Positions 25,573 to 64,000 of a stretch of DNA of 64,000 bases are shown here, in pieces. A program made the position numbers and the translations under genes. The DNA lies in the NCBI GenBank assembly GCA_017461565.1, contig JAFTXQ010000002.1:110838-174837 (forward strand), written 5' to 3'. The stretch is from Oscillospiraceae bacterium (GTDB lineage: Bacteria; Bacillota; Clostridia; Oscillospirales; Ruminococcaceae). The notes under the pieces are model-generated. The model was not told where the DNA came from. It made no database searches and was given only the letters and a program-made list of their open reading frames with translations. Each line of letters opens with the position of its first letter. Positions within the stretch are counted from its first letter, which is position 1.

Positions 25573-25654
25573 ATTAAATGCAAAATAGAAATACTATGCC
25601 TGTATGGATATGTGCGGCATGGGATTTTCTGATATTTTAAGGAGGATAAAACCA

Positions 25655-28600
25655 ATGGCTAGACAAAAGCTTACGATGGACGGTAACAACGCCGCAGGTC
25701 ACGTTTCCTATGCGTTTACAGACCTCGCTGCAATTTACCCCATCACCCCCTCTTCCGTAATGGCTGAGGTTACCGATTCCTGGGCTACTGCAGGACGCAA
25801 GAACATCTTCGGCGAGACCGTAAAGGTAGTTGAGATGCAGTCCGAGGCAGGTGCTGCAGGTGCTGTTCACGGCTCCCTGTCCGCAGGTGCGCTGACAACA
25901 ACTTACACCGCTTCTCAGGGTCTGCTCCTGATGATCCCCAATATGTACAAGATCGCAGGTGAGCTGCTTCCCTCTGTTATCCACGTTTCCGCTCGTGCAG
26001 TTGCTTCTCATGCACTTTCTATCTTCGGCGACCACAGCGACGTTTACGCTTGCCGTCAGACAGGCTACGCTATGCTGTGCTCCACCAACCCCCAGGAGGT
26101 TATGGACCTCGGTGCGGTTGCTCACATGGCTACACTGAAGGGCAGAGTTCCTTTCCTGCACTTCTTCGATGGCTTCAGAACATCCCATGAGATCCAGAAG
26201 ATCGAGGTTTGGGACAACGATACACTTTCCAAGATGGTTGACTGGGATTCCATCCAGGCATTCCGTGACAGAGCTCTCAACCCCGAGAACCCCGTTCTCC
26301 ACGGTACAGCTCAGAACCCCGACATCTTCTTCCAGGCTCGTGAGGCTTGCAACAAGTACTACAACGCTATCCCCGAGGTAGTTACAGAGTACATGAACAA
26401 GGTCAACGCTGAGATCGGTACAGATTACAAGCTGTTCAACTACTATGGTGCTCCCGACGCTGAGGAAGTTATCATCGCTATGGGTTCTGCTTGTGACACT
26501 ATCGAGGAGACAATCGACTTCATGCTGGCTCAGGGCCGCAAGGTTGGTCTCGTTAAGGTTAGACTTTACAGACCCTTCTGCTCTTCCGCATTTGTTGATG
26601 CTATCCCTGCAACAGTTAAGAAGATCTCCGTTCTCGACAGAACCAAGGAGCCCGGCTCCCTCGGTGAGCCTCTGTACCTCGACGTTGTTGCTGCTCTCAA
26701 GAAGGAGAACAAGTTCCAGGATATCCCCGTATTCTCCGGTAGATACGGTCTCGGTTCCAAGGACTGCAACCCTGCTCAGATCATCGCAGTTTACAACAAC
26801 ACAGAGAAGCCCGTATTCACGATCGGTATCGAGGACGACGTTACAAACCTCTCCCTCGCTATCACAGAGAACCCCAACACAACTCCCGAAGGCACAACAT
26901 GCTGCAAGTTCTGGGGTCTCGGTTCCGACGGTACTGTTGGTGCTAACAAGAACTCCATCAAGATCATCGGCGACCACACAGATATGTATGCTCAGGCTTA
27001 CTTTGCTTATGACTCCAAGAAGTCCGGCGGCGTAACCATCTCTCACCTGAGATTCGGTAAGAGCCCCATCAAGTCTACATACTTTGTAAACAAGGCTAAC
27101 TTCGTTGCATGTCATAACCCCTCCTATATCGACAAGTACGATATGGTTCAGGATGTTATCCCCGGCGGTACATTCCTGCTCAACTGCCAGTGGACAGTTG
27201 ACGAGCTTGACGAGAAGCTTCCCGCTCCCGTTAAGGCTTACATCGCTAAGAACAACATCAACTTCTACATCATCAACGCTATCAAGGTAGCTAAGGAGAT
27301 CGGTCTCGGCAACAAGACAAACACTGTTCTTCAGTCCGCATTCTTCTCCCTCGCTAACATCATTCCCGCTGCTGAGGCTGTTGAGTACATGAAGCAGGCT
27401 GCTTACAAGTCCTTCGCTAAGAAGGGTGACGAGATCGTTAACATGAACTACGCTGCTATCGACAGAGGTGCAGGCGAGGTAGTTAAGGTTGACGTTCCCG
27501 CTGCATGGGCTGACGCTGAGGGTGCTATGCCCGTTAACGTTGCAACAGGCGATGACAAGAAGCTTGTTGATTTCGTAAACAATATCCTTATCCCCGTAAA
27601 CGCACAGCGTGGCGACCAGCTGCCCGTATCCACATTCGTTGATATGGCTGACGGTACATTCCCCCAGGGTGCTGCTGCTTACGAGAAGCGTGGTATCGCT
27701 GTTGACGTTCCCGAGTGGATCCCCGAGAACTGTATCCAGTGTAACCAGTGCTCCTTCGTATGTCCTCACGCAGTAATCCGTCCCATGATCCTCAACGACG
27801 CTGAGGCTGCTGCTGCTCCCGCAGGTACAGTAGTTAAGGACGCAACAGGTCTGCCCGGTCTGAAGTACACAATGGCTATCTCCACTCTGGACTGCACAGG
27901 CTGTGGCGCTTGTGTACAGGCTTGTCCCGCAAAGACAAAGGCTCTGGCTATGAAGCCCATCGAGGAAATGCTCGACAAGAAGCAGCAGGAAGTATTCGAC
28001 TATGCTGTTAAGGAAGTTTCCGACAAGCCTGAGGTATTTGCTAAGTTCTCTGATACAACAGTTAAGGGCTCCCAGTTCAAGCAGCCCCTGCTCGAGTTCT
28101 CCGGCGCTTGCGCAGGCTGCGGCGAGACTCCCTATGCTAAGCTGATCACACAGGTTTGCGGTGAGAGAATGTACATCGCTAACGCAACAGGCTGCTCCTC
28201 TATCTGGGCAGGCTCCGCTCCCTCCACTCCTTATACAAAGAATAAGGAAGGCAAGGGTCCCGCTTGGGGCAACTCCCTGTTCGAGGACAACGCTGAGTTC
28301 GGTCTCGGTATGTTCCTTGCACAGGATACACTGAGAAACAGAGCTATGAAGCAGCTCGAGGCTCTCAAGGAAACTGCAAAGCCCGAGACAGTTGCTCTTA
28401 TCGACACATACCTTGCTACAAAGGATGACGCTAAGGCTAACGCTGACGCTACAAAGGCTCTCGTAAATGCACTCTCCGCTTGCGACTGCGAAGGCGCTAA
28501 GGAGATCCTGAAGGCTAAGAACTACCTCTCCAAGAAGAGCCAGTGGATCCTCGGTGGTGACGGCTGGGCTTACGATATCGGCTACGGCGGACTTGACCAC

Positions 28601-29203
28601 GTTATCGCTTCCCACAAGAACGTTAACATCTTCGTATTCGATACAGAGGTTTACTCCAACACAGGTGGACAGGCTTCCAAGGCTACTAACGTAGGTGCGG
28701 TTGCTCAGTTCGCAGCTGGTGGTAAGGACGTTAAGAAGAAGGACCTCGCAGGCATCGCTATGAGCTACGGCTATGTATACGTTGCTCAGATCGCTATGGG
28801 CGCTGACAAGAACCAGTGTCTGAAGGCTATCGCAGAGGCTGAGGCTTATGACGGACCCTCCCTGATCATCGCTTACGCTCCCTGTATCAACCACGGCATC
28901 AAGGGCGGTCTGACCATCGCTCAGCAGGTTGAGAAGGAAGCAGTAGAGGCTGGTTACTGGCACCTGTTCCGCTTCAACCCCGCTCTTGCAGCAGAGGGCA
29001 AGTCTCCCTTCTCTCTCGACAGCAAGGCTCCCACAGGCGATTACAAGGCATTCATGATGAGAGAGGTACGTTACAACTCTCTGATGCGTGCTAACCCCGA
29101 GAGAGCAACTGAGCTGTTCGATATCGCTGAGAAGAACGCTAAGGACAAGTACAAGCACCTTGTTGAAATGGACAAGATGTACAAGGCTGAGTTCGAGGGC
29201 TAA
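25655..29203 (+). CDS. nifJ: Pyruvate:ferredoxin (flavodoxin) oxidoreductase
   Basis: This 1,182-residue single-chain PFOR oxidises pyruvate to acetyl-CoA and CO2 and reduces ferredoxin in the cytoplasm. Domains in order: the pyruvate-binding domain I (YPITPSSVMAE near residue 29), domain II, the two-cluster ferredoxin domain with CIQCNQCSFVCP (about 693) and CTGCGACVQACP (about 747), and the thiamine diphosphate domain from about 810 (CAGCGETPYAKLI; GDGWAYDIGYGGLDHV; DTEVYSNTGGQ). The ATG at 25655 follows GGAGG by nine bases; in-frame ATGs further upstream lack a site. Codon use is extremely biased, typical of a very abundant protein. It supplies the reduced ferredoxin used by NfnAB. Confidence 0.96.
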   Translation: MARQKLTMDGNNAAGHVSYAFTDLAAIYPITPSSVMAEVTDSWATAGRKNIFGETVKVVEMQSEAGAAGAVHGSLSAGALTTTYTASQGLLLMIPNMYKIAGELLPSVIHVSARAVASHALSIFGDHSDVYACRQTGYAMLCSTNPQEVMDLGAVAHMATLKGRVPFLHFFDGFRTSHEIQKIEVWDNDTLSKMVDWDSIQAFRDRALNPENPVLHGTAQNPDIFFQAREACNKYYNAIPEVVTEYMNKVNAEIGTDYKLFNYYGAPDAEEVIIAMGSACDTIEETIDFMLAQGRKVGLVKVRLYRPFCSSAFVDAIPATVKKISVLDRTKEPGSLGEPLYLDVVAALKKENKFQDIPVFSGRYGLGSKDCNPAQIIAVYNNTEKPVFTIGIEDDVTNLSLAITENPNTTPEGTTCCKFWGLGSDGTVGANKNSIKIIGDHTDMYAQAYFAYDSKKSGGVTISHLRFGKSPIKSTYFVNKANFVACHNPSYIDKYDMVQDVIPGGTFLLNCQWTVDELDEKLPAPVKAYIAKNNINFYIINAIKVAKEIGLGNKTNTVLQSAFFSLANIIPAAEAVEYMKQAAYKSFAKKGDEIVNMNYAAIDRGAGEVVKVDVPAAWADAEGAMPVNVATGDDKKLVDFVNNILIPVNAQRGDQLPVSTFVDMADGTFPQGAAAYEKRGIAVDVPEWIPENCIQCNQCSFVCPHAVIRPMILNDAEAAAAPAGTVVKDATGLPGLKYTMAISTLDCTGCGACVQACPAKTKALAMKPIEEMLDKKQQEVFDYAVKEVSDKPEVFAKFSDTTVKGSQFKQPLLEFSGACAGCGETPYAKLITQVCGERMYIANATGCSSIWAGSAPSTPYTKNKEGKGPAWGNSLFEDNAEFGLGMFLAQDTLRNRAMKQLEALKETAKPETVALIDTYLATKDDAKANADATKALVNALSACDCEGAKEILKAKNYLSKKSQWILGGDGWAYDIGYGGLDHVIASHKNVNIFVFDTEVYSNTGGQASKATNVGAVAQFAAGGKDVKKKDLAGIAMSYGYVYVAQIAMGADKNQCLKAIAEAEAYDGPSLIIAYAPCINHGIKGGLTIAQQVEKEAVEAGYWHLFRFNPALAAEGKSPFSLDSKAPTGDYKAFMMREVRYNSLMRANPERATELFDIAEKNAKDKYKHLVEMDKMYKAEFEG

Positions 29204-46545: not shown

Positions 46546-46575
46546 TTGACAAATATCGAATTTATATGATATAAT
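46546..46575 (+). promoter_or_regulatory. Promoter of the giant fusion gene
   Basis: TTGACA (46546-46551) and a perfect TATAAT (46570-46575) are 18 bases apart with TG at 46567-46568 (extended -10). The gene is therefore transcribed alone, about 45 bases of leader. Confidence 0.78.
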
Positions 46576-46624: not shown

Positions 46625-49600
46625 ATGAACAATATCATATCTGTTGCAGCTTCATCAAAATGTACGGGCTGCGGCTGCTGTGCCAATATCTGTGCTTTTG
46701 ATGCCATACAGATGAAAGCTGACGAGGATGGCTTTTATCGCCCTGTTATCAACGAAGACAGCTGCAAGGACTGCGGTTTATGTCTGGACAGATGCCCCGC
46801 AAACGCTCCCGATTATTCCAACGATCCTGAGCCCGAGTGCTATGCATTGATGGCTTCCGATGAGGTGAGGGCAAAAAGCTCCAGCGGAGGTGCGTTCACG
46901 CTTATTGCCGATGAGATATTCAGGCTCGGAGGCTATGTCTGCGGCGTAGCTTATATGGATGATTGCCGAAAAACACATCACATAATAATAGACGATCCTG
47001 AGGACATGGCTGCTCTGCGTGGCTCAAAATACATAATGAGCAACACCGAGGATGTATACAAAAGGATCGGTAAGCTGCTTTCCGAGGAGAAGTATGTCCT
47101 GTTTTCGGGCACTCCCTGTCAGGTGGCAGGACTTAATGCATATCTCGGAAGCGGCAAGGATTCGCCGTATCTTCTTACTGTCGATCTCATCTGTCACGGT
47201 ATCCCTTCGGAAAAGGCGTTTTCAAAATACATGAGAGATCTTCATTCAAACAGGAAGATACAGCATCTCGGCTTCAAGGACAAGGAGTACGGCTGGCACG
47301 CCTCTCTCACGATAAAGTACGATAACGATGAAATCTATAATATGCCCTGCGAGACTGACCCTTATTTCATAAGCTATCTTAACGGACTTAACAAGAACAA
47401 GTCCTGCGGTGAATGTCAGTTTGCAAAGATGCCCAGACAGGGCGATATAACGATAGGCGACTATTGGGGTATCAATAACTATAATCCCGATTTCAACGAC
47501 AAGAAGGGCACAAGCGTAGTGCTCATAAATAACGAGCGTGCAAAGCGTTTTATTGCAGGAATAAAGGAAAATGCCAAGCTCTTCGAGCCGACTCCTCTCG
47601 ATCCTGCGATCAAAGGAAACAGCAACCTTGTTAAATCTCCCAGAAATCATACGTCACGCTCACAGTTCTTCAAGAAGATAGATGATCTCAGATATCAGGA
47701 GGCTGTGAAGTGGGGCTTTGCAGCTGAACGTTATGACATCGGTCTTGTCGGCATTCCTACCTTCCCGAATTTCGGCGGTGCGCTGACATATTATTCCCTC
47801 TATTCCACACTGAAAGACATGGGATATTCCGTTGCACTGTTCTCCCGTCCCAGAAGTACGGGCAGACCTCCCATCCCTCCCGAGCATATCTATACAAAGA
47901 ATCCCTATGCGCCCGGTGCCCTCAAGCTTGATTTCAAGGACAAGGAAGCCATGCGTATGGCAAATGATATCTGCGAAAACTTCGTTGTCGGTTCCGATCA
48001 GCTGTTCAACTCCGATCTGTACAAGCGCTTCGGCGAGATCGTAACTCTGGACTGGATCTCCGACAACCACAGAAAGGTGGCTTATGCCGCTTCCTTCGGT
48101 CACAACTTTTTCTGGGGTCCCGAAAAGGAAAGAGCCAAGATGGCTCATTTCATGCAGAAGTTCGATGCGTTCTCTGTAAGAGAAGAGGACGGCGTCAAGC
48201 TTGCTAAGGAGTCCTTCGGAGTTGACGCACAGCACGTGCTGGATCCTGTGTTCCTCTGCGACAGAAGACACTACGAAAGGATCGCCGAGGACAGTGGTAT
48301 AAAGTCCTCCGATAAACATATATTCTCTTATATCCTTGATCCGACAGAGGCAAAGGAGAGTATCCTTTCTCATGTGGAAGAAAAGCTTGGATTGGAGTCC
48401 GAGCTGTATTCGGATATGCTGTATCTTCCTTCCGAAGCAAAGATCAAGGTGGAGAGCGCAAAGTTCAGACACACTCTGCTCCAGGGCAACGTCAACGAAA
48501 GACTGAACAGCCTTGTAAACAGTGATTTTATCGTGACGGACTCCTTCCACGGCGTCTGCTTTGCGATAATATTCGAGATCCCCTTTGTTGCCATCCTCAA
48601 TCCCCTGAGAGGCGCTTCCAGATTTTACAGCGTACTTGGCAAGCTTGGTCTGCTTGACCGCCTTGTCAGCGATGTGAGCGAGCTTGAGGAAAAGAAGTGG
48701 CTGCTTGAAGAGCCGATGGATTTCACCGGAGCACGTGAGATACTTGCCGCTGAAAGAGAGCGCTGCCTTGACTGGCTGAAAAATGCTATCGAGCCTGCGG
48801 AGAAATGCGGCAAGGCATTTTCCGATGTAGATATAATGAACGACAAGTTCGCAGCCCTCAAAAAGGAACTGGTATCGAGAGATATTCGCATAAATGCTAT
48901 GCTCAGCAACAGGAACTTCATGTACGAGTCCGATTTCAACAAATATCTCGATGCCCTCATCAGCGCAAAGGAAGAGCTGGATATATATATCACAGTCATG
49001 GATACCCCAGGTCTTGCGATAAAGGACGAGCTTGCCAATAAGCTCATGTCGCTCGGCATAAAGACCTCCCTCAAGGACAAGCACTGGCGCTCTTATGTCG
49101 CTGCGCTAGACGGCGGTAAGCTGGTAAACGAAACGCTCAGTAAAAAGGACGAGCGTGTGATATTCACAGGAAATATCGGCGGCAGATCTGTAAAGGTAGT
49201 CAGCGCATCCTTCAACAAGGGTAATTACTGTGCGGTAGTACTGGATGGCGTTGATTACAGCAACGGCAGACGTGGACTCAACTTTGTTGTTGCAGACAAG
49301 GCGACGGGCATGGTAGTGGATACCGTTAATTTTGATACGCATATTGCCGAGTACACCTGCTGGCGTTTTGGTCAGCAGTGCACCACTCATGCGCCAGAGA
49401 TAAAGGCTGTAGCTGCTGTTGAGGCTCCCGTGCAGAACAATATCTATTCCGACTGCACCGATATACACTGGTATCTTGATCTGCTGTGCCACTATAAGGA
49501 TAATCTTAACATTTTCATTGCAGTCAAGGACACTCCCGGACTTGAGCTTAACGAAAAGACTGCGGAGAAGCTTATGGCGCTCGGACTGAAGGAATCTCTC

Positions 49601-52600
49601 AAGGACAAGCACTGGCACTCCTATGTAGCGGCTATCGGACGTGGCAATGTACTGGGCGAGCTTATCGACACCGAGGGTAAGGAGATAAATTACGAGGGCA
49701 TGGTCGACGCCGTTTCGGTGAAGCTTAAGAGCAGCGCCTATAACAACGGAAATATCGGCAGCATCATGATAAACGGAAAGGAATACGCCGTGCAGAGCCG
49801 TGGTCTTAACATAGTTGTTATGGATGCGGCAACGGGCGTGAAGCTGGACTCCGTATGCTTTGACACACACGTTGCGGATGCTACCTGCAAGCGTATAGAA
49901 GCAGTGCCTGTTGTTCCCAAAGCGGAGCCTGTCAATGTCGCAGCTCCCGCAGCTGCTGCACCCGCTCCCGTTGTACCTGCACCTGCACCTGCTCCCGTTG
50001 TGCCTGCGCTGTTCGACAACAACAACGAGAGAAATCTGCACGCAGCGTTCTTTGTTGCGGGCATGGGCGGTTCCTCGCTTGATTATTTCGTTGACAAGGG
50101 CATAAAGAAGATCGCTATCTACGGTACCGATCTGCTGGCTTCGCTGCTGTATGAGCAGGCTTATGCAAAGGGTATCGAGACCCCTGTGCTTATCAGTGAT
50201 AGGGATAGAAAACTTGATATGCGTCTGCCTAGAGTGGGTGGGGTAGAATTTAAAAACATCAATAATGTTGATATTGAAAATCTTGATATGCCAATAGTAA
50301 TTGCTTCTGTGTCGTATCCTATCGAATTGACAAAACGCATTAAGAATTTTAAGGAACGATCTTTGAAAATATCGGATTTAAATTATTATTCTATTTTGAA
50401 GCACAGCATTTTAGATATGGCACTTGAATATCAGAAGAGCCACCCTAAAATGAAAGTGGTTGTATTGAATATGACACGAGTGTTTGAATTGGATAACATT
50501 TCCGAGATTGAAAGAAGTATAAAAACGGGTCAGGTTGATAGGGCGAAAATTCTGAATGCTGTTTTCTATGACAGAGGATTCGATAAGGCGTATGTCGATG
50601 CAGTTACTCCTGTTCAGACTATTGTTGAAAAATACGGAATTGCGTTTGTTGCTGATGAAGAACGTGGAATCAGACGTTGTTCAAATGGATATAGAACTAC
50701 GCTACACACTCCTGAGAATTTTGAAAATACCATTTATTTCTTTGGAAACAGTGTTTGCTTTGGAGTAGGCACTGACGATGAATATACTATTGAAACTGTG
50801 CTTCAAAAGAGTATTAATGAATACTATAACGGAGACAGCCCATACTCTGTACTCAATTGTGCTAATGGCGGAGGACTTAATACTGTTGCTCAAGCTAAAT
50901 ATTTTAATTACCATGCGCCTGTGGATGGCGATATCGTTGTATTCTGCATGGGATTTGGTACACATCTTGAAGAGATGTACAAGGATAAGCTGTTATGGGT
51001 GAATACAAGAGATGTTCTCAACCGTCCGCATGATCTTGGTGAGATATACTACGATAACGATCACATGAACCGCTTTGGTTACGAAGCCTGCGGAAAGCTT
51101 CTGGCAAAGGCACTCAAGGAAAACAACTACCTTGAAAGCCGTGAAACGCTTGAAGCCTACCCCAAGGAGCGCAAGCGCATCGAGCTGCCGATAGACCTTA
51201 ATCCCGATGAGATGAAGGAGCTTGACAAGTTCGTTGAGAGTCTTGAACAGTATAAGGATCCCAATGCAACAGGCAGGATAGGCTCTATCGTAATGAACTG
51301 CAATCCCTTTACGCTGGGACATCGCTATCTGATAGAATCCAGCGCCGCAAAGTGCGATAAGCTGTATATCTTCGTTGTGGAGGAGAACCAGAGCGTATTC
51401 CCGTTTGAGGACAGACTGGAGCTTGTACGCAAGGGCACAGCGGACCTTAAGAACGTTACCGTGCTTCCCAGCGGAAACTTCATCATCTCGCAGAAGACGT
51501 TCCAGGCATACTTTACAAAGGAAGAGAACAACGAAGCTGTTATCGACGCTTCGGGCGATATCAACATCTTTGCTTCCAAGATAGCTCCTGCGCTGGGCAT
51601 CACTGTCCGCTTTGCGGGAGAGGAGCCGCTGGATAACATCACAAACCAGTATAACTCCACCATGAAGCGTATCCTGCCCCGTGCGGGGATAGACTTTGAG
51701 GTCATCAAGCGCAAGGAGGAGGGCGGCGCAGTTATCAGCGCATCCCGTGTAAGAAAGCTTCTCAAGGAAAAGAACTTTGATGAGATCGCAAGAATAACAC
51801 CTCCCACAACGCTTGAATACCTGCGTGAAAGATTCAGGGACAGCAAGAGCGTTCTTGTCCTCGGCGGCACAAGATTCATGGGAATCCGCCTTGTTGAAAA
51901 GCTGATAGAGAAGAACCACTTCGTTACTATCGCAACAAGAGGCAGAAGCAAGGACAGCTTCGGCAAGAAGGTCACAAGAGTCGTTATCGACAGACTCAAC
52001 GAGCAGACCATGGCTGACGCTTTTGACGGAAAGTATTACGATATCGTCATCGATAACACCTCCTATTGCTCCAACGCCGCAAAATATGCCCTTGAGCATA
52101 TCAAGTGCGGACGTTATATCATGATCTCATCCATCGCAGTGTACAGCGGTCCCAAGACGCACAGAGAAGAAAAGGATTTCGATGCCTCCGCTATTCAGTA
52201 CGAGCTGCTTGACCGCTCAAGCTACAACATCGGCAAGCGTTATGCCGAGGCAGTTCTCTGTCAGGGTTACCCCGATGTGAACTATGCTATCCCCCGTATC
52301 CCGTTCGTTGTGGAAGAGGAGCACCTCAGAAACAAGGATCTGAATATGCGCCTGTATTTCTACACGGAGCATATCGTAAAGGGTATCCCGCTCAACATCG
52401 ACAATCCCGATTATACCTGCTCTTTCATCCGCACAACAGATGAAGCAGACTTTATAATTCAGCTTGCGGAGTCCGATCTCAGAGGTCCCGTAAACGTTTC
52501 GGCAGAGGGTACCATCACGGTAGCGGAGCTTGTCAAGCTCATCGAAAGACTCAGCGGCAAGACTGCTGTGATAACACCCGACGGTGATCCCCATCCTTTC

Positions 52601-52744
52601 CGACAGGAGCACTTCGGCGAGGGCGATCTCGGATGCAGATTCGACCTTGAAAAGGCGAAGTCCATCGGATATCAGCCTCCCACTCTTATGTCGTGGCTGG
52701 AGCCGCTGATACAGAAATATATCGATATGATAAATGCCGAATAA
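46625..52744 (+). CDS. Giant multi-enzyme fusion: FrhB-like / polysaccharide pyruvyl transferase / two ILEI / SGNH-like / CitC-like / SDR
   Basis: One uninterrupted frame of 2,039 residues after ATGGAGGG. In order: two [4Fe-4S] motifs (CTGCGCCANIC, CKDCGLCLDRCP) and an FrhB-type domain (1-360; SSSGGAFTLIADEI, CGECQFAKMPRQGDITIGDY); a polysaccharide pyruvyl transferase (about 369-710; FPNFGGALTYYSLYSTL, VVGSDQLFN, DSFHGVCFAI); two ILEI/FAM3-like repeats (about 766-912 and 942-1092); an Ala/Pro linker (about 1094-1129); a Rossmann-like piece; an SGNH-like domain (FFGNSVCFGVG near 1369; Asp1477-Asn-Asp-His1480); a citrate-lyase-ligase-type nucleotidyltransferase (about 1550-1735; NPFTLGHRYLIE, ISASRVRKLL); and an extended SDR (about 1742-2039; GGTRFMG, YNIGKRYAE). 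No signal or membrane segment is visible. FrhB and pyruvyl transferase genes often neighbour each other in surface-glycan loci, so glycan modification is inferred. Confidence 0.85.
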   Translation: MNNIISVAASSKCTGCGCCANICAFDAIQMKADEDGFYRPVINEDSCKDCGLCLDRCPANAPDYSNDPEPECYALMASDEVRAKSSSGGAFTLIADEIFRLGGYVCGVAYMDDCRKTHHIIIDDPEDMAALRGSKYIMSNTEDVYKRIGKLLSEEKYVLFSGTPCQVAGLNAYLGSGKDSPYLLTVDLICHGIPSEKAFSKYMRDLHSNRKIQHLGFKDKEYGWHASLTIKYDNDEIYNMPCETDPYFISYLNGLNKNKSCGECQFAKMPRQGDITIGDYWGINNYNPDFNDKKGTSVVLINNERAKRFIAGIKENAKLFEPTPLDPAIKGNSNLVKSPRNHTSRSQFFKKIDDLRYQEAVKWGFAAERYDIGLVGIPTFPNFGGALTYYSLYSTLKDMGYSVALFSRPRSTGRPPIPPEHIYTKNPYAPGALKLDFKDKEAMRMANDICENFVVGSDQLFNSDLYKRFGEIVTLDWISDNHRKVAYAASFGHNFFWGPEKERAKMAHFMQKFDAFSVREEDGVKLAKESFGVDAQHVLDPVFLCDRRHYERIAEDSGIKSSDKHIFSYILDPTEAKESILSHVEEKLGLESELYSDMLYLPSEAKIKVESAKFRHTLLQGNVNERLNSLVNSDFIVTDSFHGVCFAIIFEIPFVAILNPLRGASRFYSVLGKLGLLDRLVSDVSELEEKKWLLEEPMDFTGAREILAAERERCLDWLKNAIEPAEKCGKAFSDVDIMNDKFAALKKELVSRDIRINAMLSNRNFMYESDFNKYLDALISAKEELDIYITVMDTPGLAIKDELANKLMSLGIKTSLKDKHWRSYVAALDGGKLVNETLSKKDERVIFTGNIGGRSVKVVSASFNKGNYCAVVLDGVDYSNGRRGLNFVVADKATGMVVDTVNFDTHIAEYTCWRFGQQCTTHAPEIKAVAAVEAPVQNNIYSDCTDIHWYLDLLCHYKDNLNIFIAVKDTPGLELNEKTAEKLMALGLKESLKDKHWHSYVAAIGRGNVLGELIDTEGKEINYEGMVDAVSVKLKSSAYNNGNIGSIMINGKEYAVQSRGLNIVVMDAATGVKLDSVCFDTHVADATCKRIEAVPVVPKAEPVNVAAPAAAAPAPVVPAPAPAPVVPALFDNNNERNLHAAFFVAGMGGSSLDYFVDKGIKKIAIYGTDLLASLLYEQAYAKGIETPVLISDRDRKLDMRLPRVGGVEFKNINNVDIENLDMPIVIASVSYPIELTKRIKNFKERSLKISDLNYYSILKHSILDMALEYQKSHPKMKVVVLNMTRVFELDNISEIERSIKTGQVDRAKILNAVFYDRGFDKAYVDAVTPVQTIVEKYGIAFVADEERGIRRCSNGYRTTLHTPENFENTIYFFGNSVCFGVGTDDEYTIETVLQKSINEYYNGDSPYSVLNCANGGGLNTVAQAKYFNYHAPVDGDIVVFCMGFGTHLEEMYKDKLLWVNTRDVLNRPHDLGEIYYDNDHMNRFGYEACGKLLAKALKENNYLESRETLEAYPKERKRIELPIDLNPDEMKELDKFVESLEQYKDPNATGRIGSIVMNCNPFTLGHRYLIESSAAKCDKLYIFVVEENQSVFPFEDRLELVRKGTADLKNVTVLPSGNFIISQKTFQAYFTKEENNEAVIDASGDINIFASKIAPALGITVRFAGEEPLDNITNQYNSTMKRILPRAGIDFEVIKRKEEGGAVISASRVRKLLKEKNFDEIARITPPTTLEYLRERFRDSKSVLVLGGTRFMGIRLVEKLIEKNHFVTIATRGRSKDSFGKKVTRVVIDRLNEQTMADAFDGKYYDIVIDNTSYCSNAAKYALEHIKCGRYIMISSIAVYSGPKTHREEKDFDASAIQYELLDRSSYNIGKRYAEAVLCQGYPDVNYAIPRIPFVVEEEHLRNKDLNMRLYFYTEHIVKGIPLNIDNPDYTCSFIRTTDEADFIIQLAESDLRGPVNVSAEGTITVAELVKLIERLSGKTAVITPDGDPHPFRQEHFGEGDLGCRFDLEKAKSIGYQPPTLMSWLEPLIQKYIDMINAE

Positions 52745-52781
52745 ATAAAGAGTTATCCGACTGAAATATCAATATAAACTG

Positions 52782-52814
52782 AAAAACTGCGTTATAAAAC
52801 GCAGTTTTTCTTTT
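52782..52814 (+). terminator. Terminator after the giant fusion gene
   Basis: AAAAACTGCGTT (52782-52793), loop ATAA, AACGCAGTTTTT (52798-52809), then CTTTT. The perfect 12-base stem with A-run and T-run can also serve the converging kinase gene. Confidence 0.93.
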
Positions 52815-59169: not shown

Positions 59170-59198
59170 TTGATTTCAATGCGGTGATATGGTACAAT
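59170..59198 (+). promoter_or_regulatory. Sigma-A promoter of the LRR surface protein gene
   Basis: TTGATT (59170-59175) and TACAAT (59193-59198) are 17 bases apart with TGG before the -10 (extended -10). The ATG lies 47 bases downstream. The rest of the 58,940-59,245 gap holds only the terminator and the decayed gene end. Confidence 0.75.
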
Positions 59199-59245
59199 TA
59201 TATATGCTATTTATCTATAAAACAGCAGGAAAGGGAAGTAACTAT

Positions 59246-62200
59246 ATGCAAATTCTTAAAAAGCTTTTATTCGGTATAGCGATGGCGCTGACTATGTGCT
59301 GTCTGTCGCTTGCTGCATCGGCGGTGACCTCGCCCGATGGCTTGTACGAGTACAGCGTCAACAGCGACGGCACGGCTACTATCACAAAATATCTGGGAGA
59401 TTCCACGGCTGTCAGTGTGCCGTCGGCGATCGATGGGTATACTGTGACGGCGATAGGTAATAAAGCGTTTTATGACAATGATGTGATAACATCTGTAACG
59501 CTGCCGACTACCATGAAAGAAATAGGCAGAAATGCTTTCAATTATTGTCAAGCATTAACAACAATAAATTTTCCTGAGGGAATGACAAAAATTGATGAAT
59601 TAGCATTTGCCAATTGTACTTCGCTTGAAACAGTCAGGCTTGCAGACAGCATAGCGACATTGGGAAATCGGGCATTTTTGAACTGCACAAACCTTACAAG
59701 CATAAACTATCCGCTTGGCGTGAAATATTATTCAGGCTCGACATCTATTTATGGCTTTGTTATGGGTTGCACAAATCTCACGTCTATAACCGTCCCTGAG
59801 GGTGTGACAGAACTGCCAAACAGTGTTTTTTATGATTGCGACGGGCTTACTTCTATTACATTGCCTTCTACCCTTACAACAATAGGCGCTTCTGCTTTTC
59901 AATATTGCGACGGTCTGCGGAGCGTAGTTATATCCGACAATGTTGAAACTATCGGAAACTCAGCGTTTTATGGATGTAATAATCTTTCCAATGTAAAGCT
60001 GCCCCAAAAGTTAAATACAATAGGCAGAAATGCTTTCAATTATTGTCAAGCATTAACAACTATCAATTTCCCTGAGGGAATGACAAAAATTGATGAATTA
60101 GCATTTGCAAATTGTACTTCCCTCGAAACGGTCAAGCTTGCAGACAGCATCACAACATTGGGAAATCGGGCATTTTTGGATTGCACAAGCCTTACAAGCA
60201 TAAACTATCCGCTTGGGGTAAAGTATTATTCAGGCTCGACATCCATCTATGGCTTTGTTATGGGATGTACAAATCTCACGTCTATAACCATCCCTGAAGG
60301 TGTAACAGAACTACCAAACAGTATTTTTTATGATTGTGACGGTCTTACTTCTGTAACCTTGCCATCTACTCTTACAAAAATTAGTGAAAATGCATTTTAT
60401 GATTGCGATTTTCTTACCACTATCAATTTCCCCGAGGGAATGACAAGTATAGGAAAGTATGCATTTTACAGTTGCGATTCGCTTGAAACAGTAGATCTTG
60501 CAGACAGTATAGCAAATATGGGATATTTGGCTTTTGCAAATTGTATAAGCCTTACTAGCATAAATTATCCTTTGAATTTGTCGGATTATTCGTATCCCAG
60601 TTTTTCCAATTATGGCTTTATTTGTGACAGCACAAACGTTACCTCAATCATTATACCTGAGGGAGTAACGCAAATCCCTGATAGGTTATTTGCCACTTGC
60701 AACGGACTTGTATCAGTTTCATTCCCGTCTACACTAAAAAAGATTGATTACATAGCATTTTATAACTGTGATAATCTTGAGAGTATAGTAATTCCTGATG
60801 GTGTAGAAGAAATAGGTAACGATGCATTTGCAAGTTGTGACAAACTAAAATCTGCTACACTGCCCAAAAGCTTGAATACCGTAGGCACTGATGTGTTTTC
60901 GGACTGCCCCGAATTGGATACCGTCGTAATTCCAGAGGGGCTCACTGCACTTGGCAGTTATATGTTTTATAATTGTGATTCTCTTAAGAATGTAACTTTG
61001 CCATCAACGCTTAAATCTTTAGGAAATACAACCTATACATTTGCTGAGTGTTCTGAGCTTGAAACTGTAACGTTTCCCAAGACTATGACTTCTTTGGCAA
61101 GTTATATGTTTTTAGGATGTGATTCTCTTAAAAATGTTGATTTGCCTGAAGGAATCACCTCATTGCCAGAACGTATTTTTGCCGGTTCTGGTATTGAAAC
61201 TGTATTGTTGCCTTCCACTCTTGAAGAAATAGGTAGCAGTGCTTTTGATGTATGTGAAGATTTGATTTCAATCAACTTCCCCGATGGATTGACGGAAATT
61301 GGTGATTACGCATTTTCCACTTGTACTTCGCTTTCAACAGTAAAGCTTTCAGACAGAATAGTGACATTAGGGCACGGGGCTTTTGCAAATTGCACTTTGC
61401 TTGAAACAGTAAAGCTTGCAGATAGTATAACAACACTGGGCAATGGAACTTTTCGGGATTGCACAAACCTTACAAGCATAAACTATCCTCTTGGGTTGCA
61501 GGTATACAATATAAATGGAGGCGGTTTTGTAGCTGGGTGTACTAATCTTACTTCCATAACTGTACCTGAAGGTGTAACGCAGATACCTGCGAATTTGTTT
61601 AGGGATTGTGATGGACTTGAAACCGTTTCATTCCCAATCACACTTGAAAAAATCGGTAAACATGCATTCCACGATTGTGATAATCTAAGTAAGATAGTGC
61701 TGCCTGATAGCGTGACGGAAATTGGATTGAATGCTTTCTCTGAATGTAGTGGGCTTTGTGATTTAACACTTTCAAAAAACCTTATAAGTGTTGAAAACAA
61801 TGCTTTTTTAGGATGTACTAAATTAGAAAGGGTCGTTTTCCCAGAAGGATTGACTGAGTTAGGCGCTGCCATGTTTGGCGGATGTACATCGCTTAAACAT
61901 ATTACATTGCCTGAAGGGATAACTGAGTTATACTCGGGTATTTTTGCTAATTCAGGTGTTGAAAAGGTTAACCTGCCATCTACTATTAAAGTGATAGGAA
62001 GTAGTGCCTTTTATAGTTGTTCATCTTTGAACGCTATCAATTTCCCCGAGGGAATGACGGAGATCAGTAACAACGCATTTTCCGATTGTACATCCCTCCA
62101 GGCAGCAGACCTTGCGGACAGCATAACCACAATAGGCTCAGCGGCTTTTTCGGGTTGTACAAATCTGCTTACGGTGCACTATCCGCTTAATCTGGAAACA

Positions 62201-64000
62201 TATTCGGGTAATAATGGATTTGTTTACGGCTGTACAAGGTTAGGCGGCATATACATCCCCGAGGGTGTTAAAAAGATCCCTGCTTACCTGTTCTATAACT
62301 GCAAAAGCCTTTCCATCGTCACACTCCCCACTACAATCGAGGAGATAGGCAATTACGCATTTAAAGGCTGCACGGGACTGGCAAGCGTCATTTACCTGGG
62401 CAGTGAGAAGCAGTGGGCGGATGTTACTATCGGCACGGGCAACGATCAGCTGTTCCTTGCTTTGGGCTCAAGCGGCTACGAGCTTGGCGAGCTTAGCACA
62501 GATAACCCGGGCGAGGTAGTAATTACCCAGAAAGACGGAAATCCCGCAACTGTAACATCCTCGTCAGGTCTTGATCTGAAGCTCAACAAAGCGATACTCA
62601 AATGCGGATTCAGTACCTACGACCTGCTCAGCAGCAGCTACAAGATCGTAACTACTGACAACCTTACAAAATATACGCTCACCTGCGACACAGGCAGAAG
62701 CGATGTGAGATACTCCCTTATGGCGGGAAGCGGTTCTATCTACATAAACGGCTCGGCTTCCAATACCACGGGCGTGTTCGAGTTCCAGGGTCAGGACCTC
62801 CCTGCAAGTAATGAGCTTTATGTGCTTGTTACTCACGCTTCGGGAGCTTCCTCCAAAACAAGGATACTGCTTCAGACAGAGGCGGAGGAGTTTGAGTTCT
62901 TCCCCTTTGAGTTCGATCTCGGCGATGATATCGGCATAACCATCCCCGAAAATATTCCTGTCATCGGCGGCAAGGAACTCACTTTAAGCGAGATAAGCTG
63001 CCCTGTTAACGTACATATCGAGGGAAGCAAAGTGCGTGTAGGCGTTAACATCGCAGAAGCTTCTATTGAAAGTGAAACCGAATTCAATGATTTCAAGCGT
63101 GCTTTCGATAATTTTGCATCGGGAAGGTCAAAGACTGATTCTCTGAAAAAGCACTTGGCTAAGACCTCCCCCACAGGCGATAAGGGCTTTTTCAACATGA
63201 CAGATGCGGTCGGAAAAGCAAAGTGCGAAATGGCTGTGTGCGGTTACGGTGAGGGCGAGTTTGACAAGAACGGTCTTGCAAAGATCAATGTAGGCGTTTC
63301 CGTCGCTGTTGAAGCAGGCGTTGAGTTCGGAACCACAATTGTAGTATGGGTGGTCCCTGTAACATTTACCGTAGAAATAACCGGTGGGGTGCAGGCAGAT
63401 GCAAACATATCGTATGATATCAGAAACAACTGCTTTGACAGCGCTAACCTCGACCTTACATTTGAGGCAGGTCTTGAAGGCAGTGCGTTGGTTGGTGTTG
63501 ATTTTGCATGCCTTGGCTTCTACGGCAATCTTGGCCTTGAAGTAGTTGTGGTTGCACTTTCCGGCGACGTTGTGAATAATCCTGTTGGCATTAAGACCGT
63601 GACTCTTGAGGGTGAGTTCGGTGTAAAGGGCGTATTGCTCGGACTTGAAGGTAAGTGGCCTATTGCAGAGGGCGGACCGTGGTACATCCATCAGCGCCCC
63701 GAAGCGACTACAATGTATCTCGCACCTACTACCACCTATTACAGCTACCCCGACCTCGAATCGGGCATATCCGACGTAGCCTCCACCGTGGAATACGGAC
63801 AGATATTCCTTGCACTCCCCTACGATGAGAGCGCAGCACAGACGCTCATCAGCGATGCATTCCTGTCCTCGATGCCTGCGATCATCGAAACAGAGGACAT
63901 CGTGCTTATGACATACCTCGCATCTGACCTCGAAAGAGGAGCAGATAACCAGACCGTGCTGATGTACAGCGTATATGACAAGGCAACATCCAACTGGAGC
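59246..64000 (+). CDS. Secreted BspA-type leucine-rich-repeat protein (3' end outside window)
   Basis: The frame starts at ATG 59246 after AAAGGGAAG and stays open to the right edge, giving at least 1,585 residues. It has a signal peptide (MQILKKLLFGIAMALTMCCL, then SLAASA). Beginning near residue 60, LRR_5-type repeats of about 23 residues fill roughly 3 kb (for example ITSVTLPTTMKEIGRNAFNY and LTTINFPEGMTKIDELAFAN). After about 62,400 a different region follows: YLGSEKQWADVTIG, then beta-rich modules with a Phe-rich stretch EFEFFPFEFDLGDD. The LRR part is AT-rich, the C-terminal part is not. Such proteins bind host, plant or bacterial surfaces; the ligand is unknown. Confidence 0.9.
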   Translation, partial: MQILKKLLFGIAMALTMCCLSLAASAVTSPDGLYEYSVNSDGTATITKYLGDSTAVSVPSAIDGYTVTAIGNKAFYDNDVITSVTLPTTMKEIGRNAFNYCQALTTINFPEGMTKIDELAFANCTSLETVRLADSIATLGNRAFLNCTNLTSINYPLGVKYYSGSTSIYGFVMGCTNLTSITVPEGVTELPNSVFYDCDGLTSITLPSTLTTIGASAFQYCDGLRSVVISDNVETIGNSAFYGCNNLSNVKLPQKLNTIGRNAFNYCQALTTINFPEGMTKIDELAFANCTSLETVKLADSITTLGNRAFLDCTSLTSINYPLGVKYYSGSTSIYGFVMGCTNLTSITIPEGVTELPNSIFYDCDGLTSVTLPSTLTKISENAFYDCDFLTTINFPEGMTSIGKYAFYSCDSLETVDLADSIANMGYLAFANCISLTSINYPLNLSDYSYPSFSNYGFICDSTNVTSIIIPEGVTQIPDRLFATCNGLVSVSFPSTLKKIDYIAFYNCDNLESIVIPDGVEEIGNDAFASCDKLKSATLPKSLNTVGTDVFSDCPELDTVVIPEGLTALGSYMFYNCDSLKNVTLPSTLKSLGNTTYTFAECSELETVTFPKTMTSLASYMFLGCDSLKNVDLPEGITSLPERIFAGSGIETVLLPSTLEEIGSSAFDVCEDLISINFPDGLTEIGDYAFSTCTSLSTVKLSDRIVTLGHGAFANCTLLETVKLADSITTLGNGTFRDCTNLTSINYPLGLQVYNINGGGFVAGCTNLTSITVPEGVTQIPANLFRDCDGLETVSFPITLEKIGKHAFHDCDNLSKIVLPDSVTEIGLNAFSECSGLCDLTLSKNLISVENNAFLGCTKLERVVFPEGLTELGAAMFGGCTSLKHITLPEGITELYSGIFANSGVEKVNLPSTIKVIGSSAFYSCSSLNAINFPEGMTEISNNAFSDCTSLQAADLADSITTIGSAAFSGCTNLLTVHYPLNLETYSGNNGFVYGCTRLGGIYIPEGVKKIPAYLFYNCKSLSIVTLPTTIEEIGNYAFKGCTGLASVIYLGSEKQWADVTIGTGNDQLFLALGSSGYELGELSTDNPGEVVITQKDGNPATVTSSSGLDLKLNKAILKCGFSTYDLLSSSYKIVTTDNLTKYTLTCDTGRSDVRYSLMAGSGSIYINGSASNTTGVFEFQGQDLPASNELYVLVTHASGASSKTRILLQTEAEEFEFFPFEFDLGDDIGITIPENIPVIGGKELTLSEISCPVNVHIEGSKVRVGVNIAEASIESETEFNDFKRAFDNFASGRSKTDSLKKHLAKTSPTGDKGFFNMTDAVGKAKCEMAVCGYGEGEFDKNGLAKINVGVSVAVEAGVEFGTTIVVWVVPVTFTVEITGGVQADANISYDIRNNCFDSANLDLTFEAGLEGSALVGVDFACLGFYGNLGLEVVVVALSGDVVNNPVGIKTVTLEGEFGVKGVLLGLEGKWPIAEGGPWYIHQRPEATTMYLAPTTTYYSYPDLESGISDVASTVEYGQIFLALPYDESAAQTLISDAFLSSMPAIIETEDIVLMTYLASDLERGADNQTVLMYSVYDKATSNWS
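59521..60378 (+). repeat. In-frame direct duplication inside the LRR gene
   Basis: The block 59,521 to about 59,880 recurs at 60,019 to about 60,378, offset by 498 bases (166 codons), with only scattered changes. It covers several LRR units, including the RNAFNYCQALTTINFPEGMT segment, and shows that the repeat domain expanded recently by unequal exchange. Confidence 0.85.

Follow-up and report, generated by a model that had tools for sequence, protein, structure and literature searches.

A 2,039-residue multi-module protein of an Oscillospiraceae bacterium as a candidate glycan-decorating enzyme

The window analysed here is a 64,000-nucleotide stretch of contig JAFTXQ010000002.1 of an Oscillospiraceae bacterium (assembly GCA_017461565.1, positions 110,838 to 174,837), and the gene in question, P0001, codes in a single frame for a ferredoxin-FrhB module, a polysaccharide pyruvyl transferase (PPT), two ILEI-like domains, a Rossmann-like and an SGNH-like domain, the C-terminal domain of citrate lyase ligase (CitC), and a short-chain dehydrogenase/reductase (SDR). 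Judged from its sequence, the product may be a cytosolic multi-enzyme decorating a surface glycan or a lipid- or nucleotide-linked precursor of one, a reading to which we assign a probability of about 0.55. In the first of five proposed steps, the PPT module would transfer the enolpyruvyl group of phosphoenolpyruvate to a sugar hydroxyl, and in the second the ferredoxin-FrhB module, a flavin/iron-sulfur reductase, would reduce it to a lactyl (1-carboxyethyl) ether in a MurA/MurB-like manner. The glycan would be held by the two ILEI domains (step 3), while the CitC-type domain would form an acyl-adenylate, of acetate by homology or of the new lactyl carboxylate, and the SGNH domain, with its Ser/Cys nucleophile, would pass the acyl group to the sugar (step 4). 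The SDR would oxidise, reduce, or epimerise the sugar or precursor (step 5).

Architecture and integrity of the fused gene

The first-pass annotation described one gene of 2,039 residues joining several enzyme-like modules, and this description holds, since the modules are found by Pfam and by profiles and the motifs TLGH, ISASRVR, GGTRFMG, and YNIGK are all present (Table 1). Module borders were set by Pfam at curated cut-offs and by profiles grown from the window protein and its homologues. Pfam matches over the cut-off are Fer4 (residues 12-61), FrhB_N (74-144), FrhB_C (158-319), PS_pyruv_trans (382-658), ILEI (two stretches, the best of which spans just 25 of the 90 model positions), Citrate_ly_lig (1552-1733, E 1e-66), and Epimerase (1743-1816). 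Pfam names neither the Rossmann-like nor the SGNH segment; both were placed by the homologue-grown profiles. Every module is conserved in homologues, the Rossmann-like part on three well-covered rows, so the architecture is not due to chance.

Table 1. Features of the fused gene and its flanks (positions in the window), and PPT genes elsewhere with a thiamine pyrophosphate (TPP)-dependent enzyme as partner
Feature	Position	Strand	Residues, motifs, and other details	Basis
Sigma-70 consensus promoter	46546..46575	+	TTGACA-18-TATAAT, TG ahead of second hexamer; 12/12 matches	
Fused gene P0001	46625..52744	+	ATG 46625, stop 52744; 2,039 codons/aa	
Two-cluster ferredoxin + FrhB module	46655..47677	+	11-351; Cys 13/16/19/23, 47/50/53/57, 165, 190, 261, 264	Pfam, profiles
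PPT module	47729..48790	+	369-722; DSFHG His642, Arg666	Pfam, profiles
ILEI-like domain 1	48926..49366	+	768-914	Pfam, profiles
ILEI-like domain 2	49454..49894	+	944-1090; 45% identical to domain 1	profiles
Ala/Pro-rich linker	49895..49999	+	about 1091-1125	sequence
Rossmann-like domain	50027..50398	+	1135-1258	profiles
Low-GC3 patch	50195..50971	+	codons 1191-1449; GC3 0.29 vs 0.58 elsewhere in gene	
SGNH-like domain	50438..51115	+	1272-1497; GNS with Ser1376, DxxH with His1480	profiles
CitC C-terminal domain	51221..51835	+	1533-1737; TLGH with His1566, ISASRVR	Pfam, alignment
SDR domain	51851..52723	+	1743-2033; GGTRFMG, Ser1835, Tyr1867, Lys1871 (YNIGK)	Pfam, profiles
Terminator-like hairpin	52781..52810	+	13 pairs, T-rich tail; begins 37 bases 3' of stop	
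PPTs with TPP-enzyme partner set	L072:196-2976, L087:5096-7108, L143, L224			L224 by eye

In P0001, PS_pyruv_trans (PF04230) scores 109.4 bits against a cut-off of 25.3, the FrhB/FdhB models 38.0 against 22 (PF04422) and 71.1 against 23.3 (PF04432) with the cysteines kept, the C-terminal Citrate_ly_lig domain 224.3 against 20.9, ILEI (PF15711) 39.1 against 27 over its two stretches, and SDR/epimerase (PF01370) 31.1 against 20.9, with the glycine-rich start and YxxxK in place. The protein stays under the cut-offs of the CsaB equivalog (TIGR03609; 20.4 vs 213.1), of FpoF, a subunit of F420H2 dehydrogenase (NCBIfam; 33.2 vs 475), and of full-length CitC (TIGR00124; 226.2 vs 262.1, model positions 121-332 only). 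It lacks the N-terminal GNAT domain of CitC, in whose place the SGNH domain stands, and the Pfam GDSL model gives no match in it at E up to 1, with weak matches under the cut-off in two relatives (L010, L117).

Stops between the modules or a loss of catalytic residues had been named in the first-pass annotation as findings that would refute its reading. The open reading frame translation of 46625-52744 (+) contains no internal stop, and catalytic-type residues, whose roles are known from the respective families, are retained in the alignments. The FrhB module retains its two 4Fe-4S ferredoxin motifs as well as the later Cys residues, the PPT module DSFHG and the subsequent Arg, and the SDR its Ser, Tyr, and Lys, invariant across seven rows. 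For the CitC domain, 34 canonical CitC-like frames served as reference, in which 32 columns reach a conservation of at least 95%; P0001 is identical to them in 29 of these columns, TxGH and the ISASxxR region among them. At the SGNH block-I nucleophile (Ser1376 in P0001), 22 of 23 rows have Ser or Cys, and the block-V (DxxH) His (His1480 in P0001) aligns in 17 of them.

One part of the gene differs in composition: the GC3 contrast of codons 1191-1449 has a z of -8.7, a value that none of 500 codon shuffles reaches (lowest -4.7); the same contrast computed in four other long genes lies between -2.6 and -3.9. This foreign GC3, together with the state of the assembly (19 contigs, 92.8% complete) and the absence of the fusion from the 42 other genomes of the genus examined, would suit an open frame that resulted from an assembly join or belongs to a decaying mosaic. 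Nevertheless, the reading frame and the homology run unbroken through both edges of the patch, which argues for replacement rather than misassembly, the conserved residues are intact in the aligned modules, and the gene is flanked by a promoter, a Shine-Dalgarno sequence, and a terminator-like hairpin. We regard an assembly join or decaying mosaic as very improbable and think it likely that low-GC DNA recently replaced the SGNH part.

The ferredoxin-FrhB and pyruvyl transferase modules

The proposed chemistry of the first half draws on the company kept by its relatives. A tblastn search of plasmids with the FrhB-PPT half matched 32 records, of which the best 30 were listed, 19 rows being matched via the PPT part; 18 of these 19 records were examined, H29, a near-duplicate, being left out. 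A flavin reductase is found in the same protein or at most three genes away in 13 of the 18. It is an FrhB in L153, L137 (fused), L140, and L155, a nitroreductase in L141 and L142 (both fused), L136, L144, and L154, and a MurB or MurB-like protein in L150 (fused), L145, L148, and L146; P0001, with FrhB in the same protein, likewise pairs a PPT with a flavin reductase. That flavin reductases of three families, MurB included, replace one another beside a PPT points to one shared job, the reduction of an enolpyruvyl ether. In Lactobacillales, four of six records show the order PPT-flippase-X, where X is FrhB (L155), a nitroreductase (L144, L154), or MurB (L148).

The fusion of a PPT with MurB raises the weight of the lactyl-ether reading and lowers that of a ketal. 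It is an 845-residue protein of the Paracoccus aestuarii plasmid pAES7 (L150:2492-5029), comprising PPT, FAD_binding_4, and MurB_C, and its gene adjoins a glycosyltransferase gene. On TIGR00179 (murB) it reaches 142.9 bits against a cut-off of 144.5, which the MurB of L148 passes, and it may be taken as a compact candidate lactyl-ether enzyme.

Control loci were drawn from a phylum sample with the Pfam model and comprise 69 PPT loci, the 30 best-scoring with 1.5-kb flanks and 39 lower-scoring ones, hand-picked among the matches listed, with 4-kb flanks. By score on the window-family PPT profile, nine of the 69 are of the window type. FrhB lies nearby in five of these nine and in two of the 60 others (Fisher 2e-4), and in one of 50 glycosyltransferase-1 loci (30 with 1.5-kb and 20 with 4-kb flanks). 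Such reductases are neighbours in none of the 30 best-scoring PF04230 loci within 1.5 kb, and all eight top PF04230 proteins run against NCBIfam are CsaB over the cut-off (288.7-338.5 vs 213.1).

The O-antigen locus of E. coli O124/O164, present in 5 of 5,426 genomes, has the gene order wzx-FrhB-PPT-glycosyltransferases-wzy; a DNA search of E. coli genomes with the FrhB-PPT pair of Klebsiella aerogenes gave no match. We take the O-antigens of E. coli O124 and Shigella dysenteriae 3 to contain 4-O-[(R)-1-carboxyethyl]-glucose, and Klebsiella K37 and K66 presumably carry lactyl ethers as well. According to PMC4616057, Klebsiella K8, K22, K37, and K66 have PPT genes yet no pyruvylation; among the cps genes counted there, two code for nitroreductases and one for a 'coenzyme F420 hydrogenase'. 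The K22 capsule contains 4-O-[(S)-1-carboxyethyl]-D-glucuronic acid, as stated in the title of Parolis 1988 (cited by PMC3857182, PMC7246685, and PMC13123978), and PMC9912281 notes ether-bonded lactic acid on glycans as possible. The K22 data agree with the lactyl-ether reading, as a correlation only. In the literature searched, as far as its accessible text goes, 'F420 hydrogenase' and 'pyruvyl transferase' occur together in PMC4616057 alone, and neither the FrhB/PPT pair nor SGNH-CitC was found described, which does not disprove that a description exists in print.

An ordinary pyruvate ketal, the product for which CsaB and WcaK are named, is the other one to be considered for the PPT module; FrhB would then work on something else, for instance a keto sugar. 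PF04230 is named after pyruvyl transfer, the PPT of the colanic-acid locus, WcaK, bears a pyruvyl-transferase annotation in a locus free of such reductases, and five of the 18 PPT records likewise lack one. The alternation of three reductase families, the MurB fusion, the four unpyruvylated Klebsiella types, with K22 known for its lactyl ether, and the lack of reductase neighbours around the 30 best-scoring PF04230 loci speak against a ketal, which we consider unlikely. The acidic product expected in the first-pass annotation is supported as likely, the lactyl ether formed by the FrhB/PPT pair being its most likely form. Reduced ferredoxin for this reaction could come from the pyruvate:ferredoxin oxidoreductase encoded at 25604-29203 of the window.

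That oxidoreductase gene (+) is overlapped nearly wholly by an antisense open frame of 1,173 residues (25637-29158), which is most likely spurious.

The CitC, SGNH, ILEI, and SDR modules

Canonical CitC activates acetate as acetyl-AMP and transfers it to a thiol. In the one canonical protein scanned with Pfam (L116), a GNAT domain is joined to the CitC domain, while in P0001 the SGNH domain takes the position of GNAT. The simplest and most probable role of the second half is thus an acyl transfer, driven by ATP, to a sugar hydroxyl. The CitC domain is also joined to more remote SGNH types, in L117 (a weak Pfam match) and in L138 (by eye); the latter, L138:1-2736 from a plasmid of a cockroach-gut deltaproteobacterium, codes for 911 residues whose N-terminus is of a GDS type by eye and which also comprise TPR repeats and a CitC domain, and adjoins genes for sulfonate transport and sulfate activation. 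The partner in L008 is of a left-handed beta-helix type, by sequence reading. A genuine citrate lyase ligase was considered for P0001 and rejected: GNAT is missing, the TIGR00124 score is under the cut-off, and the genome holds no match to the citrate lyase alpha subunit (PF04223), for which the identical search was positive in 3 of 14 control genomes.

The first-pass annotation correctly recognised a CitC-like domain; its view that such domains transfer nucleotides is refined here, the formation of an acyl-adenylate being more likely than a donation of nucleotides to a glycan because 29 of the 32 canonical columns are kept. The alternative would be a TagD/LicC-like nucleotidyltransferase making an NDP-activated building block, with the SGNH domain as a deacylase or esterase. 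The domain belongs to the HIGH superfamily, phosphopantetheine adenylyltransferases are the solved proteins that match it best in sequence, and a paralogous unit lies a few genes from a CTP_transf-like gene and a LicD-type gene (the latter by eye). Set against this are an identity of 35-52% to canonical CitC domains with those columns retained, and domain partners of acyltransferase-type folds (GNAT, SGNH, and the beta-helix of L008). The nucleotidyltransferase function therefore seems rather unlikely, and acyl-adenylate formation is preferred.

The two halves might even act in series, the lactyl ether made by PPT and FrhB being activated at its carboxylate by the CitC-type domain and joined by the SGNH domain, through an ester or amide, to another group. 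We consider this elaboration quite improbable; if true, a muramic-acid-like chemistry, with counterparts of MurA, of MurB, and of the carboxylate activation that follows them, would have evolved independently on a surface glycan and in one polypeptide.

The ILEI domains are proposed by analogy to bind sugar. A bacterial ILEI also lies between DUF6270 and glycosyltransferase 61 (L017).

Several observations weigh against the glycan-decorating reading as a whole. The plasmid list was obtained with an FrhB-PPT query and is hence biased to relatives; in five of its 18 PPT records (L143, L147, L156, L157, L158), L156 and L158 being from Lactobacillales, the stretch retrieved contains no such reductase, and the partner in L146 matches the FAD_binding_4 model alone, not MurB_C. 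Some PPTs are fused to or near a TPP-dependent enzyme, in some cases also an SDR (Table 1), so the PPT subfamily may not share one chemistry. In the controls, 4-kb flanks taken by themselves give 5/9 against 2/30 (p 0.004), and all lower-scoring PPT loci compared with glycosyltransferase loci, both with 4-kb flanks, give 7/39 against 1/20 (p 0.17). The DxxH His fails to align in the remaining SGNH rows (just 17 of 23 have it), and the sugar binding proposed for ILEI draws on work in eukaryotes. Standalone relatives of the SDR lie outside glycan loci in four stretches (by eye), so it is the fusion that ties the SDR to glycans. Finally, no glycan genes adjoin the fused gene.

Origin and setting of the gene, and comparison with known systems

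We infer that the gene arose by fusion of units that stand separately in relatives. Two paralogues are encoded in the same genome. One, FrhB-PPT-ILEI of 911 residues, follows what by eye is an ABC glycan-exporter-like pair; the other, ILEI-SGNH-CitC of 741 residues, shares its locus with a cytidylyltransferase-like fusion identified by Pfam and with genes that by eye are of LicD, glycosyltransferase, and methyltransferase types. G011 has the two halves side by side, as divergent genes for PPT-FrhB and ILEI-SGNH-CitC. These smaller paralogues and neighbouring halves support the fusion origin. An internal TGA recoding, flagged as '2 TGA' in the 911-residue paralogue, was discarded, its own frame being clean at 911 residues. 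All three PF04230 genes found in the genome are PPT/FrhB fusions, the third encoding 781 residues of PPT-FrhB without the ferredoxin part (L278:5031-7376); it lies on the window's own contig, at about 71030-73375, and adjoins GT2-like and membrane-protein genes (by eye).

The ILEI tree places the two window copies on the side of FrhB-PPT-ILEI (97/97) and joins them weakly to each other (66/70); constraining copy 2 to the ILEI-SGNH-CitC group gives a p-AU of 0.08. A tandem formed by local duplication is favoured; the derivation of one copy from each parent gene is not supported, though not firmly rejected.

The whole fusion is absent from the 42 other genomes of the genus and is not among the matches listed in the family sample (396 genomes including that of the window, two candidates per genome scored), where the next-longest listed frame is a GT2-GT2-PPT-FrhB of 1,649 residues. 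SGNH-CitC searches of the order (394) and phylum (398) samples gave solely partial proteins among the matches listed; SGNH-CitC is sparse, most matches listed in the order sample being CitC-like frames of about 350 residues, a type of which the single frame run through Pfam contains a GNAT domain. In module-profile scans of the loci, no protein outside the window has more than three of the seven module types. Among 21 other FrhB/PPT fusion genes, from loci found with the window protein as query, 18 are FrhB-PPT and three PPT-FrhB, and one additional ILEI is carried by L002 and L039. Other combinations comprise FrhB-SGNH-CitC in an exporter-type locus of the Bacteroidetes MAG RUG10805 (L009), SGNH-CitC proteins beside capsule-type genes in two Campylobacteraceae MAGs (L007, L008; neighbours in all three by eye), and a 1,075-residue protein (L073:1437-4664) that begins with an HAD domain (by Pfam; FkbH-like by eye) and has a window-type SGNH domain, its gene adjoining FrhB-PPT, FrhB, and Rossmann-SGNH genes.

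The surface-glycan setting proposed in the first-pass annotation is borne out by the relatives, which occur in ABC-exporter, Wzx/Wzy, LicD, and capsule-type loci (by annotation, some by eye); the fused gene's own locus, which counts against the glycan-decoration reading, is not a glycan one. Its upstream neighbours are sporulation-sigma-type genes (by ORF reading) and a phosphoglycerate mutase, and its downstream ones a histidine kinase, a response regulator, and an ABC/FtsX pair (some by eye), which places it outside any glycan locus. It is internal to the 174,837-base contig. The promoter ends 50 bases 5' of the ATG, a GGAGG Shine-Dalgarno sequence was spotted by eye upstream of the gene, and, with the terminator-like hairpin, these make 46625-52744 look like a one-gene transcription unit.

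Two further observations concern other loci. In L068:2705-7237, a cytidylyltransferase-Gfo/Idh/MocA fusion and an NTP-transferase-SHMT-like fusion lie beside a LicD-type gene (by eye), perhaps a pathway for decoration with an activated amino-alcohol or phosphonate. At 59189-64000 (+) of the window, an open frame of at least 1,604 residues runs off the contig end; it has short leucine-rich-type repeats (BspA-like by eye) and a GC content down to 0.37, and probably encodes a large surface protein.

If the FrhB/PPT pair does form a lactyl ether, a common glycan-locus family annotated as 'coenzyme F420 hydrogenase/dehydrogenase beta subunit' gains a function, the lactyl-ether sugars of capsules and O-antigens gain a biosynthetic route testable with a single protein, and the MurA/MurB logic would be run with several different reductases. 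The CitC-SGNH half hints moreover at glycan acylation driven by ATP and a free acid, not by acyl-CoA.

Among known systems, MurA/MurB resembles P0001 in the proposed chemistry, an enolpyruvyl ether reduced by a flavin enzyme to a lactyl ether, and MurB is fused to or near some PPTs; FrhB and MurB, however, belong to distinct families. CsaB and WcaK share the PF04230 family with the window PPT, which is far under the CsaB cut-off (20.4 vs 213.1). The FrhB-PPT genes of Clostridia, Bacteroides, Klebsiella aerogenes, and E. coli O124/O164 contain the same two modules and lie in glycan loci, but as a pair of genes or as fusions that lack the SGNH, CitC, and SDR modules. CitC has the same adenylylating C-terminal domain (29 of 32 conserved columns in the window protein), whereas P0001 carries SGNH instead of GNAT, scores under the TIGR00124 cut-off, and comes from a genome without a citrate lyase alpha match. 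To the SGNH O-acyltransferases and esterases, the window type is linked by the block-I G-x-Ser/Cys and the C-terminal His; the relationship is very remote (one PDB match, E 0.005), with Asn-Ser or x-Cys replacing Asp-Ser in most rows. Animal FAM3/ILEI proteins share the PF15711 match, FAM3B being the best solved relative (E 3e-4), while the window copies form a tandem module inside a bacterial enzyme in which no N-terminal secretion signal is seen by eye.

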